Shown here: positions 4,849 to 63,308 of the stretch, in pieces
How positions within the stretch are numbered: position 1 is the stretch's first letter
How the letters are laid out: each line of letters opens with the position of its first letter
Position numbers and translations under genes: made by a program
Notes under the pieces: generated by a model
What the model was told of the DNA's origin: nothing
Seen by the model: the letters and a program-made list of their open reading frames with translations, nothing else
Databases searched by the model: none
Source: Catellatospora sp. TT07R-123
GTDB taxonomy: Bacteria > Actinomycetota > Actinomycetes > Mycobacteriales > Micromonosporaceae
NCBI RefSeq assembly: GCF_018327705.1
Contig: NZ_BNEM01000002.1
Location: forward strand, 806,001-870,000
DNA length: 64,000 bases
Reading direction: 5' to 3'

Positions 4849-4852
4849 GCCG

Positions 4853-15450: not shown

Positions 15451-15451
15451 G

Positions 15452-16173: not shown

Positions 16174-16688
16174 CAGATCACCGTCATCGCGCCGTCGTTG
16201 ACCGACACCGACGCGTCGCCGACGACCAGGCTCTGCGGCCCGCGGGCGTGCGTGATGCCGACGGCGTCCAGCGACACCGCGTTGTCGTTGCTGTCGGCCA
16301 GGGTCACGCTGCCCGACTCGTCGTCGAACAGCAGCTTGTGCGGGGCGGCGGTGACCAGTCCCCGGACCGTGGCGGCGGCGTCGGCGGGCAGCTCGCCCTC
16401 GCGCCAGAAGCAGCCGGACCAGATCGGCAGGGACACGTCGCCGCCCTCGAACTCGATCCACACCGCGGCGCCGACGTCGGGGATGAGGAACAGGCCGACG
16501 TCGGGACCCGCGTAGGGCACGCACGGCAGGCACCAGTCGGTCGGCAGCGTGCCCAGGACCGCGGGCACGACCGCCCGGATGCGCAGCGTGTCCGGGTCGA
16601 CGTCGCTGACCGTGCCGCGGTACTTGCCGTAGAAGCGGTTGCGCAGCTGGTCGGCCACGTCGTACAGCAGGTCGTCCAGGTCGCTCAT
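16173..16688 (-). CDS. Baseplate assembly protein V (gpV/spike OB-fold)
   Basis: 171 residues from ATG 16688, overlapping the previous stop as ATGA. The N-terminal part (RNRFYGKYRGTVSDVDPDTL, VPAVLG, GLFLIPDVGAAVWIEFEGGD, PIWSGCFW) is the OB-fold seen in P2 gpV and VgrG gp5-like spikes. The short C-terminal part (GSVTLADSNDNAVSLDAVGI) is the start of a beta-helical needle. With the gpD-like protein it makes the split form of the Pvc8/VgrG hub-spike. No enzymatic extension is visible. Confidence 0.88.
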   Translation of the reverse strand: MSDLDDLLYDVADQLRNRFYGKYRGTVSDVDPDTLRIRAVVPAVLGTLPTDWCLPCVPYAGPDVGLFLIPDVGAAVWIEFEGGDVSLPIWSGCFWREGELPADAAATVRGLVTAAPHKLLFDDESGSVTLADSNDNAVSLDAVGITHARGPQSLVVGDASVSVNDGAMTVI

Positions 16689-48473: not shown

Positions 48474-49412
48474 TCAGCGCGACGCCGTGTCCAGCAGGTC
48501 CAGGTCGGTCTCGGTGAGCCGGACCCGGGTCGACTCCAGCAGCGGCGCCACCTGGTCGGCGCTGCGGGCGCTGGCCAGCGGGGCCGCCACGGCGGGCTGG
48601 GCCGCGAGCCAGGCCAGGGCGACCGCCGCGACCGAGACGCCGTGCGCCGCGGCGACCTCGTCCAGCGCGGCCAGGACCCGGGTGCCCCGCCCGTCGGCCA
48701 GGTGCGCGGCGGCACCCGAGGCGCGCGGGCTGTCCACGGCCGCGCCGCCGGGGCGGTACTTGCCGGTCAGGAACCCGCTGGCCAGCGCGTAGTACGGCAC
48801 GACGGAGACGTCCTGCGCGAGGCACAGCGCGGCCAGGTCCTGTTCGAACTCGGCGCGGTGCATCAGGTTGTAGTGGGGCTGCAGCGCCACGAACCGGGGC
48901 AGGCCCTCCGCGTCGGCGATCCGCAGCGCCTCGGCCAGGCGCGGGGCGGTGTAGTTGGACGCCGCCACGTACCGGACCTTGCCCGCCTGGACGAGCTCGC
49001 CGAACGCGGCCAGCGTCTCGGCCAGCGGGGTGTCGGGGTCGTCGGCGTGGGCGTAGTACAGGTCGATGCGGTCGGTGCCCAGCCGCCGCAGCGACGTCTC
49101 GGCGCTGGCCCGGATGTTGTCCGGGGCCAGGCCCTTGGCCTTGCTGTACCGGCCGACCTTGGTCGCGATCACCACCTGGTCGCGGTTGCCGCGCGCGGCC
49201 AGCCAGCGGCCGATGATCTCCTCCGACTCGCCGCCGCTGTTGCCCGGCACCCACTCGGAGTACTGGTCGGCGGTGTCGACGAAGTTGCCGCCCGCCTCGG
49301 CGTACGCGTCGAGCACCGCGAACGAGGCCCGCTCGTCGGCGGTCCAGCCGAACACGTTGCCGCCCAGCGCGAGCGGAAAGACCTTGAGGTCGGAGTTGCC
49401 CAGTCGGATCAT
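48474..49412 (-). CDS. Aldo/keto reductase
   Basis: 312 residues from ATG 49412, overlapping the adenylation-domain stop as ATGA. The TIM-barrel family tetrad is present: FVDTADQYSEW (Asp, Tyr), VIATKVGRY (Lys), YYAHADDPDTP (His). KVRYVAASNYT, LQPHYNLMHRAEFE and VVPYYALASGFLTGKY match the YajO/Gcy-like NADPH-dependent subgroup. It probably reduces a carbonyl in the adjacent pathway; last gene of the operon. Confidence 0.88.
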   Translation of the reverse strand: MIRLGNSDLKVFPLALGGNVFGWTADERASFAVLDAYAEAGGNFVDTADQYSEWVPGNSGGESEEIIGRWLAARGNRDQVVIATKVGRYSKAKGLAPDNIRASAETSLRRLGTDRIDLYYAHADDPDTPLAETLAAFGELVQAGKVRYVAASNYTAPRLAEALRIADAEGLPRFVALQPHYNLMHRAEFEQDLAALCLAQDVSVVPYYALASGFLTGKYRPGGAAVDSPRASGAAAHLADGRGTRVLAALDEVAAAHGVSVAAVALAWLAAQPAVAAPLASARSADQVAPLLESTRVRLTETDLDLLDTASR

Positions 49413-50929
49413 GCGTGGCTCCAGGCGGTGACGGTCGGTGCGGTGGCGTCGGCGCGGCCCAGCCAGACGTCCTCCATGCGGCGGCGGTCGGCCTTGCCGC
49501 TGGCGGTGCGGGGCAGCGCGGTGGTGGAGATCATCGTAGCGGGCACGAGATGGGCGGGCAGCGTCGCGGCGAGCTGGTGCAGCAGTGCCCGAGCCGGGTC
49601 GGGGCCGTCCGGCCCGGGTCCGGTGTAGAAGCCCACCAGCGAGCGCTGGCCGCTGCCGCCGACGGGCGCCACCACGATGCAGTCCTCGACGCCCGGCAGT
49701 GCCCGGGCGGCGGCCTCGATCTCGCCCAGCTCGATCCGGAAGCCCCGGATCTTGACCTGGTCGTCGTTGCGGCCGACGTACCACAGGCCCTCGTCGGTGG
49801 CGTAGGCCAGGTCGCCGCTGCGGTACCAGACGTCGCCGTCGAGGGTGACGAACCGGGCCGCCGTCAGGTCGGGCCGGTGCAGGTATCCGGGGGCGACCCC
49901 GGCCCCGGCCAGCAGGATCTCGCCCGGCTCGCCGGGGGCGACCTCGCGCAGGTCCGCGTCGACCAGCCGGGCCCGCAGATGCGGCAGCGCCCGGCCGACG
50001 AACGTGGCGCCGCCGGTGCCGGCGGGCAGGTCGGTCACGTCGGCGAAGGTGGAGTGGACCGTGGTCTCGGTGATGCCGTACATGTTGATCAGCCGGGCGT
50101 CCGGGGCGAGGCCGTGCCGCCGCCACTCGGCCAGCACCGTCATCCGCACCGCCTCGCCCGCCAGGATCACGTAGCGCAGCGCCGACAGGTCCGGCCGGGT
50201 CCGCAGCGCGGCCTTGACCAGCGCCCCGAACACCGTCGGCACCTGGTTGAGCACCGTGGCCCGCTCCCGCTCCAGCAGCGCCGCCAGCCGGTACGGGTCG
50301 CGCGCGACGTCGTCGGGCACCACCACCAGGCTGCCGCCGTGCAGCAGGCAGGCCCAGACCTCCCAGACACTGACGTCGAAGCTGTACGAGTGGAACGACG
50401 GCCACACGTCGTCGGGCCCGAACCCGAACCGGCCGCACGCGGCGCCGAGCAGGCTGGTGACGTTGCGGTGGGTGACCGCCACCCCCTTGGGCTGCCCGGT
50501 CGAACCGGACGTGTAGATGACGTACGCCGTGCCCGGCGGCACCTGCGCCGGTTCACCGTCGCGCAGCCGCCGCACCTGCGCGCAGCCTGACGCGTCGACG
50601 GCCAGCTCCAGCCTCACCCGGCTGGACTCGACCAGATGCGCGCGCCGGGCCTGCGGATACGCCGGATCGACCGGCAGGTAGGCCCCCCGCGCCCGCAGCA
50701 CTCCCAGGATCGCCAGGACGCTGCCCGCCGCGCGCGGCACGTCCACCGCGACCAGCTCGCCGGGGGCCAGCCCGGCGCCGAGCAGGTGATCGGCGACCGC
50801 GGTAACCGCCGCGTCCAGCTCGGTATAGGTCCAGCAGCGCTCGCCGTCGCGCAGCGCGACCCGGTCCGGGTGTGCCGCCACGCTGCGGCGCAGCAGCTCG
50901 TCGAGGGTGGCGTCGCCGAACCCGGTCAT
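49409..50929 (-). CDS. Stand-alone amino acid adenylation domain (NRPS A domain)
   Basis: 506 residues from ATG 50929 (ATGA overlap). Core motifs are complete: A3 YVIYTSGSTGQPKGVAVTHR, A4 FHSYSFDVSVWEVW, A5 INMYGITETTVHSTF, A7 YRSGDLA, A8 GRNDDQVKIRGFRIELGEIE, A10 LPRTASGKADRR with the catalytic Lys. It should activate an amino acid as AMP ester and load it onto a carrier in trans. The A4 segment is close to the FHSYAFDFSVWE class; the substrate cannot be assigned by eye. No condensation or thioesterase domain accompanies it. Its direct upstream partner is the carrier protein gene. Confidence 0.92.
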   Translation of the reverse strand: MTGFGDATLDELLRRSVAAHPDRVALRDGERCWTYTELDAAVTAVADHLLGAGLAPGELVAVDVPRAAGSVLAILGVLRARGAYLPVDPAYPQARRAHLVESSRVRLELAVDASGCAQVRRLRDGEPAQVPPGTAYVIYTSGSTGQPKGVAVTHRNVTSLLGAACGRFGFGPDDVWPSFHSYSFDVSVWEVWACLLHGGSLVVVPDDVARDPYRLAALLERERATVLNQVPTVFGALVKAALRTRPDLSALRYVILAGEAVRMTVLAEWRRHGLAPDARLINMYGITETTVHSTFADVTDLPAGTGGATFVGRALPHLRARLVDADLREVAPGEPGEILLAGAGVAPGYLHRPDLTAARFVTLDGDVWYRSGDLAYATDEGLWYVGRNDDQVKIRGFRIELGEIEAAARALPGVEDCIVVAPVGGSGQRSLVGFYTGPGPDGPDPARALLHQLAATLPAHLVPATMISTTALPRTASGKADRRRMEDVWLGRADATAPTVTAWSHA

Positions 50930-51438
50930 GCGCCGGCCCCCGTGCCCGGCTCCGCCGGGGCGAGCACCGCCGCGACCAGGGCGGGCCGGTAGACGCCCAG
51001 CAGGGCCAGTTCCAGCGGCAGGTCGCCGCGCCAGGTCGGGCCGTACAGGACGGTCAGGGCCGCGACGGTCTCGACCACGGCCAGGGAGTCGCCGCCGAGC
51101 TCGAAGAAGTCGTCGTCGGCGCCGACCTCCTCCAGCCCCAGCACCTCCGCCCACACGTCGGCGACCACGGCTTCGGTGCCGCCGTCGGGCTGCCGGTAGG
51201 CGGTGGCCAGCGGCGGGCGGGGGTCGCCCAGCACAGCCGGATCATCCAGACCGTCCACTCTGGTGTACCGGTCGGGCCGGTGCGCCCGGTCCAGGCCGGC
51301 GTGGGCGTGGCGCAGCGCGAGCGGGTCGACCTCGCCCGGCTCGGCGGCGTACCGCAGCACGAGCAGGTCGCGGCCCAGCCGGGTGCGGTGCGTGGTCAGC
51401 TCGCTGCCGCGGACGCCGAGCGGTGCGAGGTCGGTCAT
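50926..51438 (-). CDS. Stand-alone peptidyl carrier protein with N-terminal extension
   Basis: 170 residues from ATG 51438 (ATGA overlap). The carrier domain occupies about 88-160 with the phosphopantetheine site DDFFELGGDSLAVVE (Ser within GGDSL). The first ~85 residues (RDLLVLRYAAEPGEVDPLAL, ARAHRPDRYTRVDGLDD-like section) look like a worn C-terminal subdomain of an A domain without its A10 Lys, an unusual arrangement. It should be charged by the adjacent A domain. What collects the aminoacyl group is not obvious; the partial gene at the right edge is one candidate. Confidence 0.85.
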   Translation of the reverse strand: MTDLAPLGVRGSELTTHRTRLGRDLLVLRYAAEPGEVDPLALRHAHAGLDRAHRPDRYTRVDGLDDPAVLGDPRPPLATAYRQPDGGTEAVVADVWAEVLGLEEVGADDDFFELGGDSLAVVETVAALTVLYGPTWRGDLPLELALLGVYRPALVAAVLAPAEPGTGAGA

Positions 51439-52595
51439 CGTTCTCCTACGGTCAGTTCGGCCCGGACGTCGAGCAGCCGGGCCAGGGGGTCGCCGAAGTC
51501 GGCGAAGTGGGCGCTGTCGCGGGGGCTCGGCACGTCCAGGGCGGCCAGGAAGTCCGCCGGGACGTCGCAGCCGAACACCCCGCGCAGCATGCGGAAGACG
51601 TAGAACACCGGCGGGCGCAGCGCGACGTGGCGCCCGGCGACCTCGGCGAGGGCGGCCCAGTCGACCCGTCCGGCGCGGACCAGCGCGATCAGGTCGCCGA
51701 GGATCTTGAGGTTGCCGTCGCCGAACAGCATCACGTCGGCGTACAGGTGGTTGGCGGCGAACCAGGCGACCGTGACGTCGTCCGGCGCCTCGAACTCGAC
51801 TCCCCGGTAGCGCACCTGCTGCGGGGCCCGCCACCAGTCGTCCTCGCCGGGGCGGAACCCGGCCCCGGGCGTGTCGTGCAGGCTGTTGAGGCTGTGGTGC
51901 ACGTCGAACGACGGGCACAGGTACGCCTGGCCGCCGCCCAGCAGCACCACGTAGCCGGGCAGCACCTGCCGCAGGAAGTCGGCGTGCCCGTCGAGCGCCG
52001 GGGTCCGCACCAGCTTGACGAAGCCGCGCCCCTGCCCGAAGTAGCCGAACCCGGCGTTCTCCTCGGCGACCCGGGCCGGGGGCAGCCGGACCGGCAGGTT
52101 CGACCGCACCGCCAGATCGTCGGTGTAGCCGAGGCGCCGCAGCGTCGCGTCCACGGCCTCGACGTCCTCGCGGCGCACCACCAGGTCGACGTCGACGCCG
52201 AACGGCGGTTCCAGCTGCGGGTACACCGAAGCCGCGTAGAACGTGCCCTTGGGCACCAGCAGCGGCACCCCCTTGGCGGCCAGCTCCTCGCGCAGCACCC
52301 GCAGCTCGCTCAGGTGCAGGTCGGCCAGCGCGACGGCCACCTCCTGCAACCGCGACATCGCCGTGTCCGGTCCGCCGATGGCGGGCAGTTCGCCGCAGAC
52401 GGCGCGGACGATGTGGGCCAGGCGGCGGCTCATCAGCAGCCGCAGCAGGCCGGTGCCGTCGGGCGGGAGGTCGCCGAGGCTGGACAGGACGTTCGCGGCG
52501 GCCGCCGCGGGCAGCCGCCGCGGGAACTCCCGCAGCGACCGCACCGCGAGCGCGGCCAGCCCGGTCACCGGTGCCGGTGACGCGTGGATCCACAT
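51435..52595 (-). CDS. Nucleotidyltransferase-family protein (NTP_transf_5-like)
   Basis: 386 residues from ATG 52595. The pattern LAAKGVPLLVPKGTFYAASV-YPQ, then FGVDVDLVVRREDVEAVDAT-LRRLGY, matches the uncharacterised nucleotidyltransferase family (PF14907-like), with DVDLVV as the metal-binding acidic pair. CPSFDVHHSLN and a helical C-terminus follow. Members are common in actinobacterial peptide-type biosynthetic clusters, role unclear. It is separated from the upstream oxygenase gene by 46 bases, the only real gap in the operon, so an internal promoter is possible. Confidence 0.72.
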   Translation of the reverse strand: MWIHASPAPVTGLAALAVRSLREFPRRLPAAAAANVLSSLGDLPPDGTGLLRLLMSRRLAHIVRAVCGELPAIGGPDTAMSRLQEVAVALADLHLSELRVLREELAAKGVPLLVPKGTFYAASVYPQLEPPFGVDVDLVVRREDVEAVDATLRRLGYTDDLAVRSNLPVRLPPARVAEENAGFGYFGQGRGFVKLVRTPALDGHADFLRQVLPGYVVLLGGGQAYLCPSFDVHHSLNSLHDTPGAGFRPGEDDWWRAPQQVRYRGVEFEAPDDVTVAWFAANHLYADVMLFGDGNLKILGDLIALVRAGRVDWAALAEVAGRHVALRPPVFYVFRMLRGVFGCDVPADFLAALDVPSPRDSAHFADFGDPLARLLDVRAELTVGER

Positions 52596-52641
52596 GGGTC
52601 GGTCAGTTTCCCTTCACGGCGGCTCAGCCTTGCTCGCCCGC

Positions 52642-53391
52642 TCAGCGCAGGCCGAGCAGCTCCTGTGCCCACGGCGACAGCCGGTCGCGGGCGTCCTCGC
52701 CGAGCAGCTCCTCCTGGTTCATCTCCGGCTTCTGGTCGGCGCGGCAGAAGAACGCGTTGATGCCCGCCCGGGGGCGGTCGGTGGCGTTGTCCATGCCGCT
52801 GTGCCACAGGTGGGAGTTGAAGACGATGACGTCGCCGGCCTCGGCCAGGATGCGGGTCTCGCCCTGCCAGGAGTCGTACTGGTCCGCCATGGCCTGCTTG
52901 GGCACCTCGGTGAAGCGGTGCGAGCCGGGCACGACCCGGGTCGCGCCGTTGGCCTCGGTGAAGTCGTCCAGCGCCCAGATCGCGTTGCAGACCTTGTAGT
53001 CGCCGTTGGGGGCCGGGCCGTCGTACCAGTCGACGTGCAGCTTCTGCCGCTTCTGGCCGGGCAGCTGGGACCGCATGTTCAGCATGCTCAGCCGGATGTC
53101 GTCGCCGAGCACGTGCCGGATCGCGGCCAGCACGGCCGGGTGGGTGAGGCAGGTGTCGTAGACGGTGTCCTTGTTCAGCAGGTTGTGCAGCCGGAACGCA
53201 CCGTCGTCGCAGAGGGTGTACTCGTAGCCGGCCATCTTGCCTTCGATGTTGCCGATGCGCATCAGCGACGTCTTGACGGCCACGATCTCGGCGCGGCTCA
53301 TCAGCTGCCGGAGCACGGTGTAGCCGGACTCGTCGAGTTCGCGGCGGTGCTGGTCGGTGAGCAGGTCGGACGGTTGCTGTACGACGGTCAT
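52642..53391 (-). CDS. Phytanoyl-CoA dioxygenase (PhyH)-family Fe(II)/2-oxoglutarate oxygenase
   Basis: 249 residues from ATG 53391 (ATGA overlap). The facial triad is visible: KLHVDWYDG (HxD) and FNSHLWHSGMDN (distal His, in LWHSG), with the 2-oxoglutarate-binding Arg in NATDRPRAGIN. GATRVVPGSHRFTEVP is the family's conserved turn. Such enzymes hydroxylate, halogenate or rearrange small molecules and carrier-bound amino acids. Because the metal ligand is Asp and not Gly/Ala, hydroxylation is expected rather than halogenation. Confidence 0.88.
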   Translation of the reverse strand: MTVVQQPSDLLTDQHRRELDESGYTVLRQLMSRAEIVAVKTSLMRIGNIEGKMAGYEYTLCDDGAFRLHNLLNKDTVYDTCLTHPAVLAAIRHVLGDDIRLSMLNMRSQLPGQKRQKLHVDWYDGPAPNGDYKVCNAIWALDDFTEANGATRVVPGSHRFTEVPKQAMADQYDSWQGETRILAEAGDVIVFNSHLWHSGMDNATDRPRAGINAFFCRADQKPEMNQEELLGEDARDRLSPWAQELLGLR

Positions 53392-54107
53392 CTGCTGGTC
53401 CCTTCGGTGTCGGCGCCGTACGGGCGCGCCATGGATGCGAGGTGGAGCTCTCTGATCTCGGTGCCGCGCGGCGCGGCCAGCAACCAGGCGACCGTCGCCG
53501 CGACGTCCTCGGGTGCCAGCGCGCCGGGGCGGCCGCCGGGCGTGCCGGTGCGGAAACCGGTGTCGACGGCACCGACGGCCAGGTGGGTGCAGCGCAGGCC
53601 GTCGGCGCGGTGCTCGGCGCGGGCGACCTCGACCAGCCCGCGCAGCCCCCACTTCGCGGCGCAGTACGCGGCCCGTTCCGGCAGCCCGGCCTGGCCGGAG
53701 TCCGAACCGATCGCCACGACCTGCCCCGCGCCGTCGGCCAGCAGCCGGGGCAGCGCCGCGACCAGGGTCAGGTGCGCCCCGCGCAGGTTCGTGGCGATGG
53801 TGTCGTCCCACACCTCGACCGGGTAGTCCCGCAGCGGATGCCACTGCCCCACCCCGGCGTTGAGGACGACGGCGCGCAGCGCGGGCAGGTCGCGGGCGGC
53901 GGCGTCGACGTCGGCGGCGTCGCGCACGTCGGTGACCCGGGGGTACGCGTCCGCGCCGCGCATCCGGCAGCCGTCGGCGACCTCGGCCAGCGCCGCGCCG
54001 TCGCGGGCCCACAGCACCACCGGCACCCCGGCCCCGGCCAGCGCGTACGCCACCGCGCGGCCGATGCCGCGGCTGGCCCCGGTGACCAGCACCGCCGGTT
54101 CAGCCAT
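53388..54107 (-). CDS. Short-chain dehydrogenase/reductase
   Basis: 239 residues from ATG 54107. Cofactor motif VTGASRGIGRAVA, NAGVGQWHP (NAG), catalytic Ser in AIGSDSGQAG and YCAAKWG (YxxxK) are intact, as in classical SDRs. It interconverts a hydroxyl and a ketone. Overlaps the PRPP-synthetase-like gene by 8 bases and precedes the oxygenase, so the pair could hydroxylate then oxidise the same carbon. Confidence 0.9.
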   Translation of the reverse strand: MAEPAVLVTGASRGIGRAVAYALAGAGVPVVLWARDGAALAEVADGCRMRGADAYPRVTDVRDAADVDAAARDLPALRAVVLNAGVGQWHPLRDYPVEVWDDTIATNLRGAHLTLVAALPRLLADGAGQVVAIGSDSGQAGLPERAAYCAAKWGLRGLVEVARAEHRADGLRCTHLAVGAVDTGFRTGTPGGRPGALAPEDVAATVAWLLAAPRGTEIRELHLASMARPYGADTEGTSR

Positions 54108-55017
54108 GGCCGCCCACCAGCTGCTTGTACGCCGTCGGCAGCCCGATCACCGGCAGCCCCGGCCCGCCGAAGCGGGCCAGCCCGGCCGTGTCGGACAGCT
54201 CGGTGGTGGCCAGCGTGGTCAGCACCGGATGGGCCAGCAGCCCGGCCACGACGTCGGCCGGGGCGAACGTACGGGCCACGACGACGTGCACCTGCGCGGC
54301 GGTGGCGAGGCTGTCCAGGGCCGCGTGCAGGGTGGCGCCGGTGGTCAGCTCGTCGTCGAAGACCAGCACCCGGGCGCCGTCGAACGCGGGCCGGGCCAGC
54401 GCCACCCGCCGGGCCCGGTCGGCGTGCCCGAGCCGCTGCTTGAGCAGCACCTCGGTCGAGGCACCGAGCCGGGCGGCCAGATCGGCGCAGGCGCGGGCGC
54501 GGCCGGAGTCGGGCGCGACCACCACGTCGACCGGGCCGAGGCGCTGCCCGGCCCAGTCGGCCACGTCCGGCAGGCAGGACAGCACCCGCATCGGACGGCG
54601 GCTGAACCCGACGACCTGCGGGGCGTGCGGGTCGAACACCGCGTACTCGTCCAACGCGGGCAGCGCGTCCAGCAGCCGCAGCAGCACCGCGGCGCCCAGC
54701 GACGCCCCGTCCTCGGCCTGGACGCTGCGCGAGTACGGCAGGTACGGCACGATCAGGCGGGCGCGCAGGCGCGGGTTGGCCCGCCACAGGCAGTCCGCGG
54801 TCAGCGCCAGGTCGAGCAGCGCACCGCCCGGGTCCTGGGCACCGGCCCACAGGATGTCCAGCTCATCGGGCACCGGCCCGGCGGCCAGGTACATGGCGTT
54901 GCCGTTGGCGAAGGCGATCCGGGTGGTCTCGTACCGGTGCCAGGCGCCGGTGGCCAGCATCGCGGCGGCGGTGCGGGCGGCCGCGGCGGCGGGCAGGGTC
55001 AGCAGGGCGGTGCTCAC
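54100..55017 (-). CDS. PRPP-synthetase-like protein
   Basis: 305 residues from GTG 55017 (GTGA overlap). It follows the ribose-phosphate diphosphokinase layout: FANGNAMYLAAG at the N-terminus, PYLPYSRSVQAEDGASLGAA (in place of PYxxYARQDR), FDPHAPQVVGF (in place of DLHxxQIQGFF), VVVAPDSGRARACADLA, and the PRPP loop VFDDELTTGATLHAAL. Family residues for ATP/R5P binding are partly altered, so it is a specialised paralogue and not the housekeeping Prs. In this operon it would supply PRPP for the TrpD-like enzyme. Confidence 0.8.
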   Translation of the reverse strand: MSTALLTLPAAAAARTAAAMLATGAWHRYETTRIAFANGNAMYLAAGPVPDELDILWAGAQDPGGALLDLALTADCLWRANPRLRARLIVPYLPYSRSVQAEDGASLGAAVLLRLLDALPALDEYAVFDPHAPQVVGFSRRPMRVLSCLPDVADWAGQRLGPVDVVVAPDSGRARACADLAARLGASTEVLLKQRLGHADRARRVALARPAFDGARVLVFDDELTTGATLHAALDSLATAAQVHVVVARTFAPADVVAGLLAHPVLTTLATTELSDTAGLARFGGPGLPVIGLPTAYKQLVGGHG

Positions 55018-55556
55018 GCGACCACCACCAGCGGCGGAAGCCGGTCGGCGGCGACGTCGAGGCGGTCCAGCAGCCCGGCCAGGGCCTGGGGGGCCAGGTC
55101 GGCGACGATCCGCAGCGCGACCGCGAGGGCTTTGACGTGGCCGACGCTGCGGCCCCCGGCGGAGGTGAGGGCCCGGTCGCGGACCAGTCCGTCGTACACC
55201 CGGCAGCCTCCGGCCGCGGCCAGCCGCTCGGCCTTGCCACTGTGCCCGGCGACGGTGCGCCCGCGCAGCACCCCCAGCCCGGCCAGCACGAACGCGCCGG
55301 AGCAGACCGTGTAGGCGCGCCGGTCGGCCCGCACGTGCGCGGCGAGCAGCCCCGTCAGCGGCGTACGCGGGACGGGCTGCTCGGCGGCGGCGCCGCCGGT
55401 GACCACGACCGCGTCGAAGACGCCGGTGACGGCGTCGCCCAGGCCCCGCTCGACCACCTCGAACAGGCCTGCCTTGTGCAGCACGCGCACGACCGGGACG
55501 GTGTCGAGGGGCTCGCCGGGTTCCGGCGCGACCACGAGGATCCGGGCCGGGGTCAT
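55014..55556 (-). CDS. DJ-1/PfpI-family protein (GATase1-like)
   Basis: 180 residues from ATG 55556 (ATGA overlap). ILVVAPEPGEPLDTVPVVRV, FDAVVVTGGAAAE, and the nucleophile elbow AYTVCSGAFVLAGLGVLRGR-TVAGHSGKA match the DJ-1/PfpI domain of AraC-type GATase1 proteins such as isonitrile hydratase, but without a DNA-binding domain. The reactive Cys is in VCSGAF. Function could be hydration, deglycation or hydrolysis; not determinable. Confidence 0.82.
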   Translation of the reverse strand: MTPARILVVAPEPGEPLDTVPVVRVLHKAGLFEVVERGLGDAVTGVFDAVVVTGGAAAEQPVPRTPLTGLLAAHVRADRRAYTVCSGAFVLAGLGVLRGRTVAGHSGKAERLAAAGGCRVYDGLVRDRALTSAGGRSVGHVKALAVALRIVADLAPQALAGLLDRLDVAADRLPPLVVVA

Positions 55557-56302
55557 CGGGCACCGGCCGGGGCGCGCAGCAGGTACAGCGCCGCGTCGGC
55601 CGACGGCCAGATCGGCAGCCGCAGCGCGGTCAGCCCGGCGGCACGGGCCAGGTCGGCGACGGAGGCCGCGCCCGGCAGGAACTGCCGGTAGCAGGTGCGG
55701 ACCTCCGCCTCGGCCAGGGTGATGACCGCGTAGACGTGCTCGGTCTCGGTGGCGGCGTCCCAGCTGATCGTCTTGGTGAGCCCGCCGCCGGGCAGGCGGT
55801 GCTCCTTGCGGGCGGGCCGGGGCGCGCGGTCGCGGTCGAAGACCTCCAGCGCGACCGCCCCGCCGGGGGCGAGGCTCGCGGCGGCGCGGCGCAGCAGCGC
55901 CAGGCTGGCCGGGCGGTCGGCGGCGAACCCGAACGAGTTGCCGAGCAGCAGCACCAGCCGGTACGCGGCCGCGGGCAGTTCGGTGGCGGCGACGTCGCCG
56001 TGGACGGTGTGCACGCGGCCGTCCACGCCTGCCGCGCGGGCCCGGTCGCGCAGGGTCGCCAGCGACGGCTCGATCCGGTCGACGCCGGTGACGGTCCAGC
56101 CGCGCGCGGCCAGTTCCAGCGTGTGCCGGCCGGGTCCGCACATCAGGTCGGCGGCGTGGCCGGGCCGGTGGTCGGTGGCGGCGAGCACGAGGTCGATCTC
56201 GGTGGCGGTCAGCTGCGGGTCGGGCGGGCGGTAGCCGTCGTAGGCCGCGCCGAGCCGGTCGAAGTAGACGGCGGTGGCGCAGTCGCCGGTGCAGGCGTCC
56301 AT
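55553..56302 (-). CDS. Class I SAM-dependent methyltransferase
   Basis: 249 residues from ATG 56302. Motif I AADLMCGPGRHTLELAARGW-TVTGVD, then VHTVHGDVAATELPAAAYRL-VLLLGNSFGF (motifs II/IV) identify the fold. LPGGGLTKTISWDAATETEH follows in the substrate region. The short N-terminus (MDACTGDCATAVYFDRLGAA-YD) is common in small-molecule N- or O-methyltransferases. Expected to methylate a pathway intermediate. Confidence 0.88.
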   Translation of the reverse strand: MDACTGDCATAVYFDRLGAAYDGYRPPDPQLTATEIDLVLAATDHRPGHAADLMCGPGRHTLELAARGWTVTGVDRIEPSLATLRDRARAAGVDGRVHTVHGDVAATELPAAAYRLVLLLGNSFGFAADRPASLALLRRAAASLAPGGAVALEVFDRDRAPRPARKEHRLPGGGLTKTISWDAATETEHVYAVITLAEAEVRTCYRQFLPGAASVADLARAAGLTALRLPIWPSADAALYLLRAPAGAR

Positions 56303-56952
56303 CAGCGGGCCGCCGGCTGCGGCAGGCGCGGCCGCAGCCGCTCCCACACCCGGTCGAGCAGCTCGGCGGGCGGGCTCTGCGAGCTGAGCAGCAGCCCGTC
56401 GTTGTCGCGGGCCAGCCGCGTGAACGCCTCCCGGTTGCGGGTGACGAACGCGGCCTGCTGGTCCCAGCGGCGGCTGTCGCTGCCGTCGCGGGTGACGACC
56501 CGGTCGAGCAGCGTCTCGGCGGGGGCGTCCATGACGATCAGCAGGTCGGGTTTGATGATGTCGGCGTACAGGCTGGACAGCCGGGCCGGGTCGAACTCGC
56601 CGGTGGTCAGGTAGTGCGCGACCAGGGACAGCAGGTAGCGGTTGGACAGGATCCAGCCGCCGACGGCCAGCGTGGGCCGGATGACGCGTTCCTGCTGGTC
56701 GACGCGGTCGGCGAGGGCGAACAGCGCCATCGCCATCGGGGTGAGCTGCTCCGGGTCGCCGACCATGGTGGCCTGCACCCGGTGGTCGCCGCGCCACCAG
56801 GACGTCGGCTGCATGATCACTTCAGGGTGCACGCCGTGGTCGGCGAGCCGGGCCAGCAGGCCGTGCTCCAGGGTGGTCTTGCCCGAGCCGTCGGGCCCGC
56901 AGATGACGATGAGGGCACCGGGGTGGTCGTGCGGTTTCAGGTTCAGCTGCAC
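56302..56952 (-). CDS. Thymidylate-kinase-like nucleotide kinase
   Basis: 216 residues from GTG 56952, with GGGAGG 6 bases upstream; it overlaps the PfkB stop by 10 bases. Walker A ICGPDGSGKTTLE, SNRYLLSLVAHYLTTGEFDP at the usual DRY position, PDLLIVMDAPAETLLDRV, and a basic LID-like segment (TRDGSDSRRW) match the dTMP kinase fold. It is unlikely to be the housekeeping Tmk because of its cluster setting; it may phosphorylate a nucleotide-like intermediate. Confidence 0.8.
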   Translation of the reverse strand: MQLNLKPHDHPGALIVICGPDGSGKTTLEHGLLARLADHGVHPEVIMQPTSWWRGDHRVQATMVGDPEQLTPMAMALFALADRVDQQERVIRPTLAVGGWILSNRYLLSLVAHYLTTGEFDPARLSSLYADIIKPDLLIVMDAPAETLLDRVVTRDGSDSRRWDQQAAFVTRNREAFTRLARDNDGLLLSSQSPPAELLDRVWERLRPRLPQPAAR

Positions 56953-57830
56953 TGCAATCCTCCCAGCAGGAATTCGGCCGCGGCGGGGTCGGCGCGTTCG
57001 GACACCGCGCGGGCCAGCTCCGCGCCGCCGGGCAGCCCGGTGGCGCCGGGTGCCTCCACCGCGAGCGCGCCGAGCAGCGCGCCGAGCCCGGCGGCGGTCC
57101 GCAGCGGCAGCCCCGCGCCCAGGCCCGCCGCGAGTCCGGCGGTGAACGCGTCGCCGGCCCCGGTCGCGTCGACCTCGACGGCGGGCACGGCGGGCACGGC
57201 CGACCAGCCGTCGGCGTCGTGCACCCGGCAGCCTTCGGCGCCGAGGGTGACCACGACCGCCGCGTACCCGTCGGCGGCGGCGTCGCCGAGCTGCGCCCAT
57301 TCGGTGCGGTTGGCGACCAGCACGATCCCGCCGCGCCGGTCGGCCAGCGCCCGGTGCGCGGCGGCGATCCGGCCGCCCGGGTTGACCACGACGGTCTGCC
57401 CGGCGGCCACCGCCTGCGGTAGCACGGCCGGGGGCGGGTCGAACACCACCATCACCCGGCTGTCGGGAAACGACGGGGTGAGGGCGTCGTTGGCGGCGCG
57501 GTGCAGCATCATGTGGTGCAGCGACGGAGCGTTGACGATCACGGCCCGGCCGGTGGCCGCACCCGGCACGACCTGCATCCAGCCGGTGTCCACGCCCTCG
57601 GCGGCCAGGTGCGCGAGCAGGCGCTCGCCGGCCTGGTCGGAGCCGACCGCGCCGACCAGGCACGGTTGGTGCCCGAGCCGGGCCAGAACGACGGCGGTGT
57701 TGGCGGCGTGGCCGCCGGGGGCCTGGTGCACCGCGAGGATGTCGGTGGTGCCGTCGGGGCCCGGGTCACCGGACAGGGTGAGGATCTCGTCGTGGTTCAC
57801 CCCGCCGACCACGGTGAACCCGGCGGTCAC
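56943..57830 (-). CDS. PfkB-family carbohydrate kinase
   Basis: 295 residues from GTG 57830 (GTGA overlap). Signature 1 GGHAANTAVVLARLG and signature 2 EVDATGAGDAFTAGLAAGLG with the catalytic Asp are intact, making an active ribokinase-like enzyme likely. Sugar specificity is not readable. Placed between RidA-like and the nucleotide kinase, it could make ribose 5-phosphate or phosphorylate a cyclitol. Confidence 0.9.
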   Translation of the reverse strand: MTAGFTVVGGVNHDEILTLSGDPGPDGTTDILAVHQAPGGHAANTAVVLARLGHQPCLVGAVGSDQAGERLLAHLAAEGVDTGWMQVVPGAATGRAVIVNAPSLHHMMLHRAANDALTPSFPDSRVMVVFDPPPAVLPQAVAAGQTVVVNPGGRIAAAHRALADRRGGIVLVANRTEWAQLGDAAADGYAAVVVTLGAEGCRVHDADGWSAVPAVPAVEVDATGAGDAFTAGLAAGLGAGLPLRTAAGLGALLGALAVEAPGATGLPGGAELARAVSERADPAAAEFLLGGLQCS

Positions 57831-58231
57831 CGGGGACCGTCCGGCACCGCCGCCACGGCGCTGATCTCGACCAGGTGCTCGGGCACGACCAGCCCGGCCA
57901 CGAACACGACGGTGCTCGACGGCGGGCTCACCTCGGCGAAGACCTTGTCGCGTACGGCGGTGAAGGCCGGGAAGTCCGCGCGGTCGACCAGGTAGACGGT
58001 GACCGCGACGAGGTCGCCCAGCTGCGCGCCCGCCTCGGCCAGCACGGCGGTGATGTTGCGGTAGACCTGCTCGGCCTGGGTCGCGATGTCCGCGCCGACG
58101 GTGGCGCCGCTCGCGTCGGTCGCGACCTGGCCGGTGACGTACACCCACCGCAGCGGCCCGCCGACCTCCACGCCCGGGGAGTACCGGGCGATCGGCGGCC
58201 CGACCTGCGCGGGGACGAGAGCGCGCCTCAC
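57827..58231 (-). CDS. RidA/YjgF-family protein lacking the catalytic Arg
   Basis: 134 residues from GTG 58231 (GTGA overlap). VYVTGQVATDASG, VYRNITAVLAEAGAQLGDLV-AVTVYLVDRADFPAFTAVRD and LVEISAVAAVP give the family. The conserved PxR(T/S) motif that supplies the imine-hydrolysing Arg of RidA is replaced by PPSST, so it falls in another Rid subgroup and may bind a reactive intermediate without classical deaminase activity. Confidence 0.85.
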   Translation of the reverse strand: MRRALVPAQVGPPIARYSPGVEVGGPLRWVYVTGQVATDASGATVGADIATQAEQVYRNITAVLAEAGAQLGDLVAVTVYLVDRADFPAFTAVRDKVFAEVSPPSSTVVFVAGLVVPEHLVEISAVAAVPDGPR

Positions 58232-59283
58232 GCCGCCGCGCCGGTCCGGCGGGACCGGTCCGCCCAGCGGTGGAGCACGTCCTGGGCGCTGCCGTCGCGC
58301 AGCACCGACTCGGCGACCTTGAGGCCGTCGGACAGGTCGGCGGCCCGGCCCGCGACGACGAGGACGGCGGCGGCGTTGAGCAGCACGATCTCGGTCTGCG
58401 CGGTGGTGGCGGTGCCCGCGAGCACGGCCCGGCTGATCTCGGCGTTGCGCCGGGGGTCGCCGCCCTCGACCTGGTCGATGGTGGCGCGGGCCAGCCCGAG
58501 GTCGACGGCGTCGACCCGCAACTCGGTGACCGCTCCGTCGCGCACCTGCAGGATCCGGGTGGGTGCGGTGGTGGAGACCTCGTCGAGGCCGTCCTCGGCG
58601 TGCACCACCCAGGCGTGCCGGGTGCCGGAGCGGGCCAGCGCGCCCGCGGTGACCTCGGCGTAGCGGGAGTCGTACATGCCGGTGACCTGGCGGGTGACCC
58701 GGGCGGGGTTGCACAGCGGCCCGAGCAGGTTGAACACGAACCGCAGGCCCACCTCCTGGCGCAGCCCGATGAGGTGGCGCATGCCGGAGTTGAACGCCGG
58801 GGCGTGCATGAAGCAGATGCCGAGCTCGCGCAGGCAGGCCGCGACGTCGGCCGGGTCGGACACGGCGCGCACCCCGAGTTCGGCCAGCACGTCGCTGCTG
58901 CCGGAGTTACTGGACACGGCGCTGGTGCCGTGCTTGGCCACCGGCACCCCGGCGGCCGCGACCAGGAACGCGGCGGTGGTCGAGATGTTGAACACGCGGG
59001 CGCTGGGGCCGTCGCCGCCGGTGCCGCAGGTGTCCACGGCCCGGTCGGCCAGCTCGCCCAGGTCGACGGTGGTGCCCTCGGCGCGCAGCACCCGCAGGAA
59101 CCCGGCGATCTCCTCGGCGCGCTCGCCCTTCATCCGCAGCGCGGTGCCGAGCGCGCCGAACTGGGAGCCGGTGAACTCCCCGGCGACCAGGGCGCTCATG
59201 ACCTCGGCGGCCTCGTCCTCGGTCAGGTCGCGGCCGTCGACGAGCGCGCGCAGGGCCGGCCGCAGCCGGGTCGGGGTGGTCAT
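58228..59283 (-). CDS. Anthranilate phosphoribosyltransferase-like enzyme with altered acceptor site
   Basis: 351 residues from ATG 59283 (ATGA overlap). The PRPP/Mg2+ parts of TrpD are kept: VDTCGTGGDG, FNISTTAAFLVAAAGVPVAK-HG and NLLGPLCNPA. Residues that hold anthranilate differ: KHGN is KHGT, the GSAD site is GSSD, the HPAM-type His segment reads APAFNSGMRHL, and RELGxRTxFN reads RQEVGLRFVFN. The family fold and PRPP chemistry are confident; a different acceptor is inferred. No other trp gene is near, which also argues against tryptophan synthesis. Confidence 0.85.
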   Translation of the reverse strand: MTTPTRLRPALRALVDGRDLTEDEAAEVMSALVAGEFTGSQFGALGTALRMKGERAEEIAGFLRVLRAEGTTVDLGELADRAVDTCGTGGDGPSARVFNISTTAAFLVAAAGVPVAKHGTSAVSSNSGSSDVLAELGVRAVSDPADVAACLRELGICFMHAPAFNSGMRHLIGLRQEVGLRFVFNLLGPLCNPARVTRQVTGMYDSRYAEVTAGALARSGTRHAWVVHAEDGLDEVSTTAPTRILQVRDGAVTELRVDAVDLGLARATIDQVEGGDPRRNAEISRAVLAGTATTAQTEIVLLNAAAVLVVAGRAADLSDGLKVAESVLRDGSAQDVLHRWADRSRRTGAAA

Positions 59284-60368
59284 TGCGTGCCTCCCAGGAT
59301 CGTGGCGGCGCCGTCGAGCTTGATGACCGCGTCGTCGAACGCCTGCGGGCTGGTGTCGGTGTCGCCGAGCGGCGGGGATTTGACCAGGGAGGCCGCGCCG
59401 TGGACCGGCCCGGCGAAGCCCGCGCGGCGGGCCAGCACGGCCAGCCGGACCAGGTCGATGATCACGCCCGCGGCGTTGCTGGAGTCCTGTACGGACAGCT
59501 TGAGCTCGATCGTGGCCGTGGCCCCGGCCCACCCGGCCGCCTCGACGTGGATGTAGCCGATCTTCTGGTCGTTGAGCACCGGCAGGTAGCCGCCGGAGGG
59601 CACCACCGAGACCCGGTCGGAGTATGCGCCGCCCAGCGCGGCGTGCTTGGACTGCCGCTTGGCCTCGCCGCGCACCAGCAGGTTGCGGAAGTCGGCGTTG
59701 CCGCCGAGGTTGACCTGGTAGCTGCGCTCGATGTGCAGGCCGCGTTCGGTGACCAGGCTCAGCAGGGTGCGGTGCAGGACCGAGGAGCCGAGATGGCTGG
59801 CCAGGTCGTCGCCGACGACCGGCACGCCGGCCTCGGTGAACCGGGCGGCCCAGCCGGGGTCGCGGGCGATGAGGTCGGGGGTGCAGTTGACGAACGCCAC
59901 CCCGGCGCGCAGCGCGGCCTCGGCGTAGAAGGCCACCGCCCCGGCCGAGCCGGTGGGCAGGGAGTACAGCAGGGCCTCGGCGCCGCTGTCGCGCAGCTGC
60001 CCGGCGATGTCGTCGACGGTGCGGTCGGCGCCGACGGGACCGACGCTGTCGGACAGGTGCGGGGGCACCCCGTCCAGGCGGGCGCCCATGGCCACGACGG
60101 TGGTCTCGTCCGGCAGTTCCGACACCAGGCGCGGGTAGTTGTTGGGCGCGGCGAAGACGGCCTCGCCCAGGGGGCGGCCGACCTTCGCCTCGGCGACGTC
60201 GAACGCGGCGACGAAGGCCAGATCGGTGACGTGCAGGCCGCCCACGTACGGACGGGTCACGCCGGGCAGCTCGGCGGGGTCGTCCGCCTGCCGGTAGACG
60301 GCCACTCCCTGCACCAGGGCCGAGATGTTGTTGCCCACACCGACGATCGCCAATCTGGCTGGCTTCAC
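59280..60368 (-). CDS. Inositol-3-phosphate synthase family protein (paralogue)
   Basis: 362 residues from GTG 60368, with GGGAGA a few bases upstream. The actinobacterial ino1 pattern is present: AIVGVGNNISALVQGV (NAD loop), VTDLAFVAAFDVAEAKVGRP, YSLPTGSAGAVAFYAEAALR-AGVAFVNCTPD, AGVPVVGDDLASHLGSSVLH-R, LNDQKIGYIHVEAAGWAG, DSSNAAGVIIDLVRLA, ASLVKSPP. It would cyclise a hexose (or related) 6-phosphate to a cyclitol phosphate through an NAD-bound keto intermediate. The active-site region reads GGNADFRNLLVRGEAKRQSK, close to but not identical with GGNMDFxNM. It is the first gene of the 14-gene operon. Confidence 0.88.
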   Translation of the reverse strand: MKPARLAIVGVGNNISALVQGVAVYRQADDPAELPGVTRPYVGGLHVTDLAFVAAFDVAEAKVGRPLGEAVFAAPNNYPRLVSELPDETTVVAMGARLDGVPPHLSDSVGPVGADRTVDDIAGQLRDSGAEALLYSLPTGSAGAVAFYAEAALRAGVAFVNCTPDLIARDPGWAARFTEAGVPVVGDDLASHLGSSVLHRTLLSLVTERGLHIERSYQVNLGGNADFRNLLVRGEAKRQSKHAALGGAYSDRVSVVPSGGYLPVLNDQKIGYIHVEAAGWAGATATIELKLSVQDSSNAAGVIIDLVRLAVLARRAGFAGPVHGAASLVKSPPLGDTDTSPQAFDDAVIKLDGAATILGGTQ

Positions 60369-60760: not shown

Positions 60761-61726
60761 ATGACCGACCATGAGCCGCCACTCGTCGAGGCCGCCGGAC
60801 TCGGCAAGACCTATCCCGCCGGACCGGGCGGCACCGAGCTCGCCGCCGTACGCGGCATCGACCTGCGGCTGCACCGCGGCGAGGCGCTCGGCCTGCTCGG
60901 CACCAACGGCGCCGGCAAGTCCACCACCATGCGCATGCTCGCGGCCGTCTCCCCGCCCACCTTCGGCACGCTGCGCGTCCTGGGCATGGACCCGCTGCAC
61001 GACAGCCCGCACATCCGCGCCCGCCTCGGCGTCGTGCCCCAGGACGACATGCTCGACCAGGAACTGACCGTCCGGGAGAACCTGCTGGTCTACGGGCGCT
61101 ACTTCGGACTGTCCCGAGCGGTCCTGCGCGAGCGCACCGCATACCTGATCGAGTTCGCCGCGCTGGAGGCCAAGGCCGACGCGCCCGTGACCTCCCTGTC
61201 CGGGGGCATGCGGCGGCGGCTCACCATCGCCCGCGCGCTGATCAACCAGCCGTCGCTGCTGCTGCTCGACGAGCCGACCACCGGCCTGGACCCGCAGGCC
61301 CGCCAGCTGCTGTGGGACCGGCTCACCCGGCTCAAGCAGGACGGCGTCGCCCTCATCGTCACCACGCACTACATGGACGAGGCCGAGCAGCTCTGCGACC
61401 GCGTCGTCATCATGGAACGCGGCGCCGCCGTCGCCGACGGCACCCCGCGCGAGCTCATCGAGGCCCACGCGCTGCCCGAGGTCGTCGAGCTGCGGTTCAC
61501 CACCGCCGAACACGACCGCGGCACCACCGCCGTCAAGCAGCTCATCGCCGACGGCGCCGCCTGGCGGCTGGAGGAGCTGCCCGACCGCCTGCTCATCGGC
61601 ACCGCCGACGGCGCCGACACCCTCGCCCGGGTCGAGGCCCGGGTGTTCCCGCGCGCCAGCCTGGTCCGGCGGGCCACCCTGGAGGACGTCTTCCTGTCCC
61701 TGACCGGCCGCGCGCTGGTGGACTGA
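60761..61726 (+). CDS. ABC transporter ATP-binding protein (DrrA/NodI type)
   Basis: 321 residues from ATG 60761 (a GTG at 60710 is possible). Walker A GTNGAGKST, Q-loop PQDDM, signature LSGGMRRR, Walker B LLLLDEPTTGLD and switch His TTHYMDEAEQL are intact, with the C-terminal domain of drug-exporter ATPases. It powers the two permeases that follow in coupled order and probably exports the cluster's product or gives self-resistance. Confidence 0.94.
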   Translation: MTDHEPPLVEAAGLGKTYPAGPGGTELAAVRGIDLRLHRGEALGLLGTNGAGKSTTMRMLAAVSPPTFGTLRVLGMDPLHDSPHIRARLGVVPQDDMLDQELTVRENLLVYGRYFGLSRAVLRERTAYLIEFAALEAKADAPVTSLSGGMRRRLTIARALINQPSLLLLDEPTTGLDPQARQLLWDRLTRLKQDGVALIVTTHYMDEAEQLCDRVVIMERGAAVADGTPRELIEAHALPEVVELRFTTAEHDRGTTAVKQLIADGAAWRLEELPDRLLIGTADGADTLARVEARVFPRASLVRRATLEDVFLSLTGRALVD

Positions 61727-62508
61727 TGACCGGGCTCACCTACTCCCCCGCATACGCCGAGTTCCGGTACTGGGGCGCGATCTTCGCCAAGTCGTGGCGG
61801 CCCGTGCTGGTCAACAGCATCGTCAACCCCGTGCTGTTCCTCGCGGGCATCGGCCTGGGCCTGGGCCAGCTCGTCGACGCCAACGCGCCGCTGGCCGGGG
61901 GCCTGACCTACGCGGCCTTCTTCGCCCCCGGCCTGCTGGCCGCGGCCGCGATGCAGACCGCCGTCGTCGAGGGCGGACAGACCGTCTTCAGCGCGGTACG
62001 CAACCGCCGCAGCTACCTCGTCGCGGCCTACACCCCGCTGCAACCGCACGACATCCTCAACGGCCACCTGCTCTTCATCGCCGCCCGGATCCTGCTCAGC
62101 AGCACCATGTTCACCGCCGTCATGTACGCCTTCGGCGTGGCCCACGCGCTGACCGCCATGCTCGCGATCCCGGTGGCGGTGCTGCTCGGGCTCGCCTGCG
62201 CCGCACCCACCGCCGCCTGGGCCGTCACCGTCCGCCGGGCTGCGGTGATCGGCAACTTCTCGCGGTTCGTCGTCATGCCGGTGTACCTGTTCTCGGCCAC
62301 GTTCTTCCCGATCGAGGTCATGCCCGGCTGGCTGCAACCGGTGGTCTACGCCAGCCCGCTGTGGCACGGCGCCCGGCTGTGCCGCGCCCTGACCACCGGC
62401 ACCGCCACCCTGACCGGCGCCGCCGCCGACCTCGCCGTCCTGGCGGTCACCGCGCTGGCCGGATACCTCGCCGCCCGCCGCACCTACCGCCGCCACCTGC
62501 ACGCTTAA
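61726..62508 (+). CDS. ABC-2 type transporter permease
   Basis: 260 residues from ATG 61726 (overlaps the ATPase stop). Six membrane segments are evident, including ILVNSIVNPVLFLAGIGLG-like, YAAFFAPGLLAAAAM, ALTAMLAIPVAVLLGLACA and VMPVYLFSATFFPIEVMPGW. FSATFFPIE...WLQPVVYASPLWH is typical of ABC-2/NodJ-type permeases. It pairs with the next permease as a heterodimer. Confidence 0.92.
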   Translation: MTGLTYSPAYAEFRYWGAIFAKSWRPVLVNSIVNPVLFLAGIGLGLGQLVDANAPLAGGLTYAAFFAPGLLAAAAMQTAVVEGGQTVFSAVRNRRSYLVAAYTPLQPHDILNGHLLFIAARILLSSTMFTAVMYAFGVAHALTAMLAIPVAVLLGLACAAPTAAWAVTVRRAAVIGNFSRFVVMPVYLFSATFFPIEVMPGWLQPVVYASPLWHGARLCRALTTGTATLTGAAADLAVLAVTALAGYLAARRTYRRHLHA

Positions 62509-62519
62509 CGGGAGCCAGC

Positions 62520-63308
62520 ATGAGCACCATCGCCGCGCCGACGCCCCGCCGCGCCGCCGGACGCCCCTGGTGGCTGGTCGAACGCCACCTGCGGGTGTAC
62601 CGCAAGTCCTGGTCGGTGTTCATCGCCGACCTCACCGAGCCCCTGCTCTACCTCGTCGCCATCGGCCTGGGCGTGGGCAGCCTCGTCGGCGACGTCGCGG
62701 GCACCGGCGTGCCGTACGCGCAGTACGTCGCCCCCGCGCTGCTGGCCACCTCGGCGATGAACGGCGCGATGAACGAGGCCTCCAGCCGCGTCTTCATGCG
62801 CATCAAGGTCGAGAAGACGTACCAGACGATGATCACGACGCCGATGACCGTCACCGACATCCAGTACGGCGAGATCGCCTGGGCGATCCTGCGCGGCCTG
62901 GCCGGCACCGGCGGGTTCCTGGCCGCCGCCGCCGCGTTCGGGCTGATCCGCTCGCCGTACGCGCTGCTCGCGCTGCCCGCCGCCGCGCTGGTCGGGTTCG
63001 CGTTCGCCGCCTGCGGCCTGCTCGTGGCCACCCTGCTGCGCAGCTGGTACGACTACCTCTACCTCCAGCTGTTCATGCTGCCCATGTTCCTGTTCGCGAC
63101 CACGTTCTACCCGCTGGAGGTCTACCCCGCCGCGTTCCGGCCGGTCGTGCAGGCGCTGCCGCTCTACCACGCCGTCACCCTGCTGCGGCAGGTGTGCCTG
63201 GGCCGGTTCGACCTGCACGCCGCCGCCGCCGTGGCCTACCTGCTGTTGCTCGGCCTGGCCGCCAGCGCGCTGGCCGCGGGGCGCTGGCGCCGGATGCTCC
63301 AGTCGTGA
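62520..63308 (+). CDS. ABC-2 type transporter permease
   Basis: 262 residues from ATG 62520 with GGGAGCC upstream. Similar architecture to the previous permease: PLLYLVAIGLGVGSLVG, QYVAPALLATSAMNGAM, FGLIRSPYALLALPAAALVG, LFMLPMFLFATTFYPLEVYP and a last helix. The matching FATTFYPLE...VVQALPLYH segment shows the two permeases derive from duplication. Stop overlaps the next GTG. Confidence 0.92.
   Translation: MSTIAAPTPRRAAGRPWWLVERHLRVYRKSWSVFIADLTEPLLYLVAIGLGVGSLVGDVAGTGVPYAQYVAPALLATSAMNGAMNEASSRVFMRIKVEKTYQTMITTPMTVTDIQYGEIAWAILRGLAGTGGFLAAAAAFGLIRSPYALLALPAAALVGFAFAACGLLVATLLRSWYDYLYLQLFMLPMFLFATTFYPLEVYPAAFRPVVQALPLYHAVTLLRQVCLGRFDLHAAAAVAYLLLLGLAASALAAGRWRRMLQS

Follow-up and report, generated by a model that had tools for sequence, protein, structure and literature searches.

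The window, a 64,000-nt stretch of the Catellatospora sp. TT07R-123 genome, contains an operon of 14 genes (g1 to g14, numbered in transcription order from 60368 down to 48474) that may build a carbocyclic nucleoside- or nucleotide-like metabolite. The probability of this reading was put at roughly 0.44. It includes a tentative proposal, held somewhat below even odds, of a natural route to carbocyclic (cyclopentenyl) phosphoribosyl diphosphate (PRPP), in which a repurposed PRPP synthetase (g8) makes the donor and a repurposed TrpD (g2) spends it. Carbocyclic PRPP is not known other than as a stable synthetic analogue for trapping PRPP enzymes, and a search of the open-access PMC literature found nothing on a natural carbocyclic PRPP.

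In the predicted pathway, whose ring size, carbocyclic PRPP, acceptor, amino acid and product are all inferred, g1 would cyclise fructose-6-phosphate to a five-membered cyclitol phosphate. The short-chain dehydrogenase (SDR, g9), RidA (g3), DJ-1-like (g7) and PfkB (g4) proteins would then convert it, in a presumed order of steps, into carba-ribose-5-phosphate or its cyclopentenyl form. A diphosphate would be added at the ring carbon by g8. The resulting carbocyclic PRPP analogue would most plausibly be cyclopentenyl (allylic), and with g2 an amine or similar acceptor, probably not anthranilate, would displace this diphosphate. The carrier g12 would receive a Thr-like amino acid from g13, and this amino acid would be joined on. 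Tailoring would be performed by g6, g10 and g14, and the product would be exported by the divergent ABC-2 system.

Carbocycle module and coupling genes

Five genes of the operon form a module together: the Ino1 paralogue g1 (59280..60368, minus strand like all 14 genes; 362 aa; Pfam PF01658/PF07994), the RidA family gene g3 (57827..58231; PF01042), the PfkB/ribokinase-like kinase gene g4 (56943..57830; PF00294), the DJ-1/PfpI-like gene g7 (55014..55556; PF01965) and the SDR gene g9 (53388..54107; PF00106). Related loci were collected with A1, a profile built from g1 and three relatives. The A1 scan of named genomes gave 58 loci; it reaches only loci holding one of two exact peptide patterns and so is not exhaustive. 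Ino1, SDR, RidA and PfkB genes were found together within 2.3–3.0 kb in 13 other genomes, each counted once (L038 and L052 belong to the same genome and L038 was dropped; L036 and L037 came from outside the named-genome scan). Genes neighbouring these 13 loci were identified by tblastn (E ≤ 1e-5) within about 10 kb, and by Pfam on parts of L036–L038, L046, L049, L051 and L055. A DJ-1-like gene lay between or near the module genes at 11 of the 13 loci (10 by tblastn, and L050 by the best-in-genome search).

The best-in-genome tests compared the window proteins with ten of the 13 genomes (L037, L053 and L095 were left out). The best match of the g9 SDR was the module copy in all ten, with 150–170 bits against at most 84 for the next best (in two of the genomes, scoring covered 150 of 182 and 150 of 193 candidates). 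The g4 and g3 queries likewise found the module copy first in 10/10, and g7 did so in 8/10. In the other two genomes, the best DJ-1 match shared the contig of Ino1 at a distance of about 10.6 kb in one and lay on another contig in the other; the module contig of G404 (L055) has a weak DJ-1 match that is outranked by one elsewhere. Since the best matches of SDR, PfkB, RidA and mostly DJ-1 fall in the module, its common descent is well supported. The PfkB kinase had been proposed in the initial annotation to supply PRPP. This role as a ribokinase is disfavoured, because the best matches of g4 in 10/10 genomes sit in carbocycle module loci with no Prs-like match within about 10 kb.

The genes that accompany the module separate the window from its relatives. 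A phosphomutase (PGM_PMM) was found at 11 of the 13 loci, a PNP_UDP_1 phosphorylase at 10 and both at 10; GFO_IDH, His phosphatase and S-adenosylhomocysteine hydrolase (SAHase)-like genes were found in 12, 11 and 7, respectively. TrpD-like and Prs-like genes were found at none of the 13 within the distance and threshold given above, while the window has both. The window and the next 16 kb, to which the search of this genome was confined, contained no phosphomutase or PNP-type match better than E 0.5. The window has its Prs-like and TrpD-like genes in place of the phosphomutase and phosphorylase of its relatives. For these relatives, a 1-phosphate would be the activated form of the ring, and the phosphorylase would do the joining. 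In the window, a 1-diphosphate joined by a phosphoribosyltransferase would be the natural reading.

The Ino1 paralogue and the Prs-like and TrpD-like proteins

The ring size was assessed from g1. This protein matched PDB entry 6k96 with 335.7 bits and 1gr0, the inositol-3-phosphate synthase of Mycobacterium tuberculosis, with 251.2 bits. Entry 6k96 is named 'Five-membered-cyclitol-phosphate synthase' and, on this name, we take it to be Ari2 of the aristeromycin pathway. The A1 profile gave 625 bits for 6k96 and 282 bits for the inositol synthase. According to excerpts of the review PMC11188666, Ari2 uses NAD+ in making a phosphorylated five-membered cyclitol from fructose-6-phosphate. Twenty-two diagnostic columns that separate 11 aristeromycin-type from 18 canonical Ino1 sequences, the latter termed canonical by tree position and lower similarity, were picked without g1. 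In these columns g1 carries 17 Ari2-type residues, 2 canonical ones and 3 that are neither. It also scored below the NCBIfam mycothiol_INO1 equivalog cut-off (TIGR03450; 263.9 versus 638 bits). An unrooted Ino1 tree was built from part of the 58 scan loci; 44 rows were requested and 42 retained, the own-genome paralogues L002 and L003 having given no usable match. A branch with 100/100 support has the 18 canonical rows on one side and, on the other, g1 with 23 Ari2-side rows. By score and diagnostic residues, a closer relation of g1 to Ari2 than to inositol synthases is favoured, and formation of a five-membered ring is favoured but unproven. An ordinary, inositol-forming Ino1 was dropped as first choice on the 6k96 similarity, the diagnostic residues and the equivalog cut-off, and not on the tree.

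Four further Ino1-family matches were found in the same genome. A short Ino1 paralogue (about 313 aa) is present there as L005 (G000:C1:1067193-1068113) and also at L010–L013 and L015. This Micromonospora-type protein carries the Ari2-type residue in 10–12 of the 22 columns, and no module was seen around it or around L005 in the six 20-kb stretches examined.

The Prs-like protein g8 (54100..55017; PF00156) is predicted to be a divergent diphosphokinase. It shares with ribose-phosphate diphosphokinase (Prs) the catalytic His, Lys and Arg and the DD..TGxT signature: H131, K193, R195, D221-D222 and the PRPP motif DDxxxTGxT are all retained. H131, the flexible-loop residues K193 and R195 and the PRPP-motif residues D221-D222 are taken to be the catalytic ones. 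Unlike ordinary Prs, g8 keeps only 32 of the 96 columns conserved across eight such proteins and falls below the NCBIfam ribP_PPkin cut-off (TIGR01251; 81.5 versus 113 bits). Its best match to a Prs structure reached 63 bits. At E ≤ 1e-22, g8 was found in its own genome only among 394 genomes of the class (at most 5 candidates scored per genome) and, at E ≤ 1e-20, in its own genome only among 11 genomes of the genus (all candidates scored). In 12 genomes searched at E ≤ 0.001, own included, all other matches were of Prs type, with 26–33% identity.

The TrpD-like protein g2 (58228..59283; 351 aa) has both Pfam domains (PF00591/PF02885) of anthranilate phosphoribosyltransferase (AnPRT, TrpD), its DE motif and the PRPP-binding GTGGD, and exceeds the NCBIfam trpD cut-off (367.7 versus 199.05 bits). 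It differs from TrpD in having KHGTS for KHGNR and FNS for FHP. At the last two positions of KHGNR, 12 readable relatives have Asn in 11 (Gly in L128) and Arg in 12, where g2 has Thr and Ser. An Arg is present in g2 at the motif place LRQEVG and, by motif mapping, may correspond to R193 of the M. tuberculosis enzyme. In that enzyme, N138 contacts the anthranilate carboxylate and R193 holds it, according to excerpts of PMC9835598. Because the Asn equivalent to N138 is replaced by Thr, the acceptor of g2 is probably, if weakly so, not anthranilate. No trpE, trpG, trpC or trpF was found among the 14 genes with Pfam. A second TrpD, 42% identical to g2, is encoded elsewhere in the genome, and g2 as the housekeeping TrpD is disfavoured on this ground. 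A carbocyclic PRPP analogue is preferred over ordinary PRPP as the donor, a choice that the sequence does not decide.

Weighing of the readings

Several points count against the carbocyclic donor and the five-membered ring. The title of Parry 1997, as listed in PMC7953260, describes saturated carbocyclic PRPP as 'stable', and AnPRT is thought to react dissociatively (excerpts of PMC9835598), so a saturated carbocyclic donor should be poor. A cyclopentenyl diphosphate was proposed because a ring without oxygen forms no oxocarbenium ion, whereas an allyl cation could form; this idea would be a rescue of the carbocyclic donor. Labelling work reportedly places neplanocin A before aristeromycin, which fits the cyclopentenyl proposal. 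The gene swap rests on one case, since searches with g8 and g11 gave no second genome with the arrangement of the window. The GFO_IDH, His phosphatase and SAHase-like (best E 0.72) genes of the relatives were also unmatched in the window and the next 16 kb, where the best E for all five of the relatives' genes was no better than 0.38. For g1, the residue is canonical or other in 5 of the 22 diagnostic columns, and identity is 50–56% to the short Micromonospora-type Ino1 and 48–53% to the aristeromycin-type Ino1. The next branch of the tree (97/93) puts g1 and the canonical rows opposite the 23 Ari2-side rows; by itself, the unrooted tree leaves g1 between the two sides, branching deep. Finally, no condensation domain or other obvious enzyme releasing the amino acid bound to the peptidyl carrier protein (PCP) was found among the 14 genes (Pfam, E ≤ 0.001).

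Ordinary PRPP chemistry is a serious contender, although we would bet against it. Here g8 would make extra PRPP and g2 would phosphoribosylate an acceptor, perhaps an aminated cyclopentitol, giving a pseudo-disaccharide or N-riboside that also carries an amino acid. This would resemble the phosphoribosyl transfer of ribostamycin and butirosin biosynthesis (BtrL). The cell always has PRPP available and its chemistry is suited to the transfer, g2 keeps GTGGD and passes the trpD cut-off, and g8 keeps the PRPP motif and the catalytic residues. A supply copy, however, needs no divergence, yet g8 matches ordinary Prs in only 32/96 columns and reaches 81.5 of the 113 bits of the cut-off. Ordinary PRPP also leaves the missing phosphomutase/PNP-type pair, present in 10/13 relatives, unexplained, and none of the 14 genes was identified by Pfam as a phosphatase that could release the ribose phosphate. 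It is unlikely that g1 still makes a six-membered inositol phosphate for an aminocyclitol pathway in which ribose or an amino acid forms the side chain. Its position in the tree and its canonical residues at 2/22 columns would suit such an enzyme, and the four other Ino1-family matches in the genome suggest that these paralogues diversify. Against this, 6k96 is ahead of the M. tuberculosis inositol synthase by 84 bits, 17/22 columns are Ari2-type, the score is far under the Ino1 equivalog cut-off, and aristeromycin-type clusters have the same SDR, RidA, PfkB and, for the most part, DJ-1 partners. Rather improbable, finally, is an operon of two independent halves, in which a carbocycle from the five module genes and a TrpD-like/Prs-like/adenylation (A) domain/PCP unit are linked late and no carbocyclic PRPP is made. 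The portability of the module, which Streptomyces poriferorum and S. hygroscopicus pair with a B12 radical SAM protein, a carbamoyltransferase and an A domain, would allow it; but a single run of genes mixes the TrpD-like and Prs-like genes with those of the module, and no other activation or coupling genes were seen.

If the carbocyclic reading is right and g8 makes carbocyclic PRPP, g8 and its partners would be the first enzymes for this compound. Carbocyclic nucleotides could then be reached generally by phosphoribosyltransferase instead of phosphorylase chemistry. The pathway would be a carbon-ring shadow of central PRPP metabolism, and in principle any acceptor could be ribosylated with a non-hydrolysable sugar.

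The operon, its remaining genes and related clusters

The 14 genes are consecutive minus-strand open reading frames (ORFs) at 60368–48474, form one operon, and each has a Pfam match. Twelve of the 13 junctions overlap by 1–10 bp (4 bp at nine of the 12), and the sole intergenic gap, of 46 bp, lies between g10 (PhyH) and g11 (NTP_transf_5). Because the junctions overlap, the genes are probably co-transcribed. A codon-based gene caller recovered all 14 stops, with alternative starts for four genes; it was trained on these same genes and so gives no independent proof. The stretch between 47000 and 63500 showed neither a promoter-like consensus of sigma-70 type nor a terminator-like one, which has little weight in so GC-rich a genome. 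The initial annotation had described fourteen genes in one direction as a single operon with overlaps of 1–16 bases, and this was essentially right, the maximum seen being 10. Every family that it named was present, including the PRPP-type genes, the cyclitol enzyme and the A/PCP pair; RidA (g3), DJ-1/PfpI (g7) and NTP_transf_5 (g11) had been missed. The divergent ABC exporter that it reported is real, with an ATPase (PF00005) and two membrane subunits (PF01061 and gene calls) of ABC-2 type at about 60761..63308 on the plus strand.

The amino acid half comprises a free PCP and a free A domain. The PCP, g12 (50926..51438; PF00550), has the GGDS motif and an N-terminal extension of about 75–90 residues; its structure prediction without alignment gave a mean predicted local distance difference test score of 42.9 and was set aside. 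The nonribosomal peptide synthetase A domain g13 (49409..50929; PF00501/PF13193) also matched A domains in the PDB. Its ten-position code, read by eye, is DVWNIAMVHK. The code positions were set from those of PheA, and the result is close to the Thr code DFWNIGMVHK. The protein would thus activate a Thr-like amino acid. The nucleotidyltransferase-fold protein g11 (51435..52595; PF14907, 71.4 bits) was found, at E ≤ 1e-12, in its own genome only among 298 genomes of the order (at most 6 candidates scored per genome). In S. hygroscopicus L055, an NTP_transf_5 protein with 28% identity to g11 over 242 aa adjoins an A-PCP gene.

Among the other genes, g10 (52642..53391; PF05721) encodes a PhyH-type Fe(II)/2-oxoglutarate (2OG) oxygenase with an intact HxD motif in LHVDW; it matched 2OG dioxygenase structures with at best 38 bits and is predicted to be a hydroxylase or related oxygenase. 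An intact HxD speaks against a SyrB2-like halogenase, which was ruled out for g10. The thymidylate-kinase-like kinase g5 (56302..56952; PF02223) matched dTMP kinases of the PDB with up to 50 bits and falls under the NCBIfam DTMP_kinase cut-off (75.6 versus 83.25). An S-adenosylmethionine (SAM) methyltransferase, g6 (55553..56302; PF13649, 52.6 bits), and an aldo/keto reductase, g14 (48474..49412; PF00248, 232.5 bits), complete the operon. Outside it, a gene for a large RHS-repeat protein lies at 37991-43303 (minus strand), about 5 kb past the downstream end of the operon, with a GC content of about 0.62–0.64, below most of the window. Four successive long ORFs of about 815–1028 aa occupy 4853-15450 (minus strand).

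Ari2-like Ino1 genes were also seen in other settings. In a third context, the Ino1 protein has 20–21 of the 22 Ari2-type columns (L102, S. orinoci; L059, Mangrovihabitans; L056, S. fumanus; about 4700-16500). The L102 gene lies beside two FAS1-dehydratase/MaoC-like, a DegT aminotransferase, two HIBADH-like dehydrogenase, SDR, GFO_IDH and FemAB-like genes; these neighbours are kept in L059 and, partly rearranged, in L056. On the alphaproteobacterial contigs L053 (uncultured Rhodobacteraceae) and L095 (a Breoghania metagenome-assembled genome), phosphomutase, PNP-type and SAHase-like matches accompany an aristeromycin-type module.

Whatever the fate of carbocyclic PRPP, the module (Ari2-type Ino1, SDR, RidA, PfkB and usually DJ-1) is portable and occurs in at least three kinds of neighbourhood. 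It brings the middle steps of aristeromycin biosynthesis within easier reach of experiments and can be used to mine genomes for new carbocyclic natural products. Its portability follows from S. poriferorum (L049) and S. hygroscopicus NBRC 13472 (L055), which pair it with quite different partners. Like the window, both have Ino1-SDR-RidA-PfkB with a nearby A domain and have neither phosphomutase nor PNP-type gene, and L055 shares NTP_transf_5. Unlike the window, they have B12 radical SAM and carbamoyltransferase genes after the module, and within about 10 kb neither TrpD-like nor Prs-like genes occur. This second cluster type (L049 8964-20289, L055 4701-20951) also includes a 220-aa protein without a Pfam match and, in L055, an ATP-grasp gene.

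The initial annotation was half right. It correctly recognised a PRPP-type and cyclitol operon and assigned the Ino1-like protein as a cyclitol enzyme; the cyclitol is most likely five-membered, Ari2-like by score and diagnostic residues with the tree leaving it between, and the donor may itself be a carbocycle. It could match the gene set to no known pathway, and we found no cluster with the same set, but five of the 14 genes are common to aristeromycin-type clusters. One of the 13 genomes is that of Micromonospora haikouensis DSM 45626 (L046), for which excerpts of PMC8706298 report an aristeromycin/coformycin cluster; the L046 locus additionally has HisG-like and SAHase-like genes. Aristeromycin-type clusters comprise BGC0001514 (number as given in excerpts of PMC11888242), L046 and nine further loci with phosphomutase and PNP-type genes. 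At the ten loci, the TrpD-like, Prs-like, thymidylate-kinase-like, methyltransferase, PhyH, NTP_transf_5 and PCP genes of the window are unmatched, the aldo/keto reductase and the A domain have a match in three each, and the gene order is reshuffled. What the window has in common with these clusters is the Ari2-type Ino1 and the DJ-1, SDR, RidA and PfkB genes.

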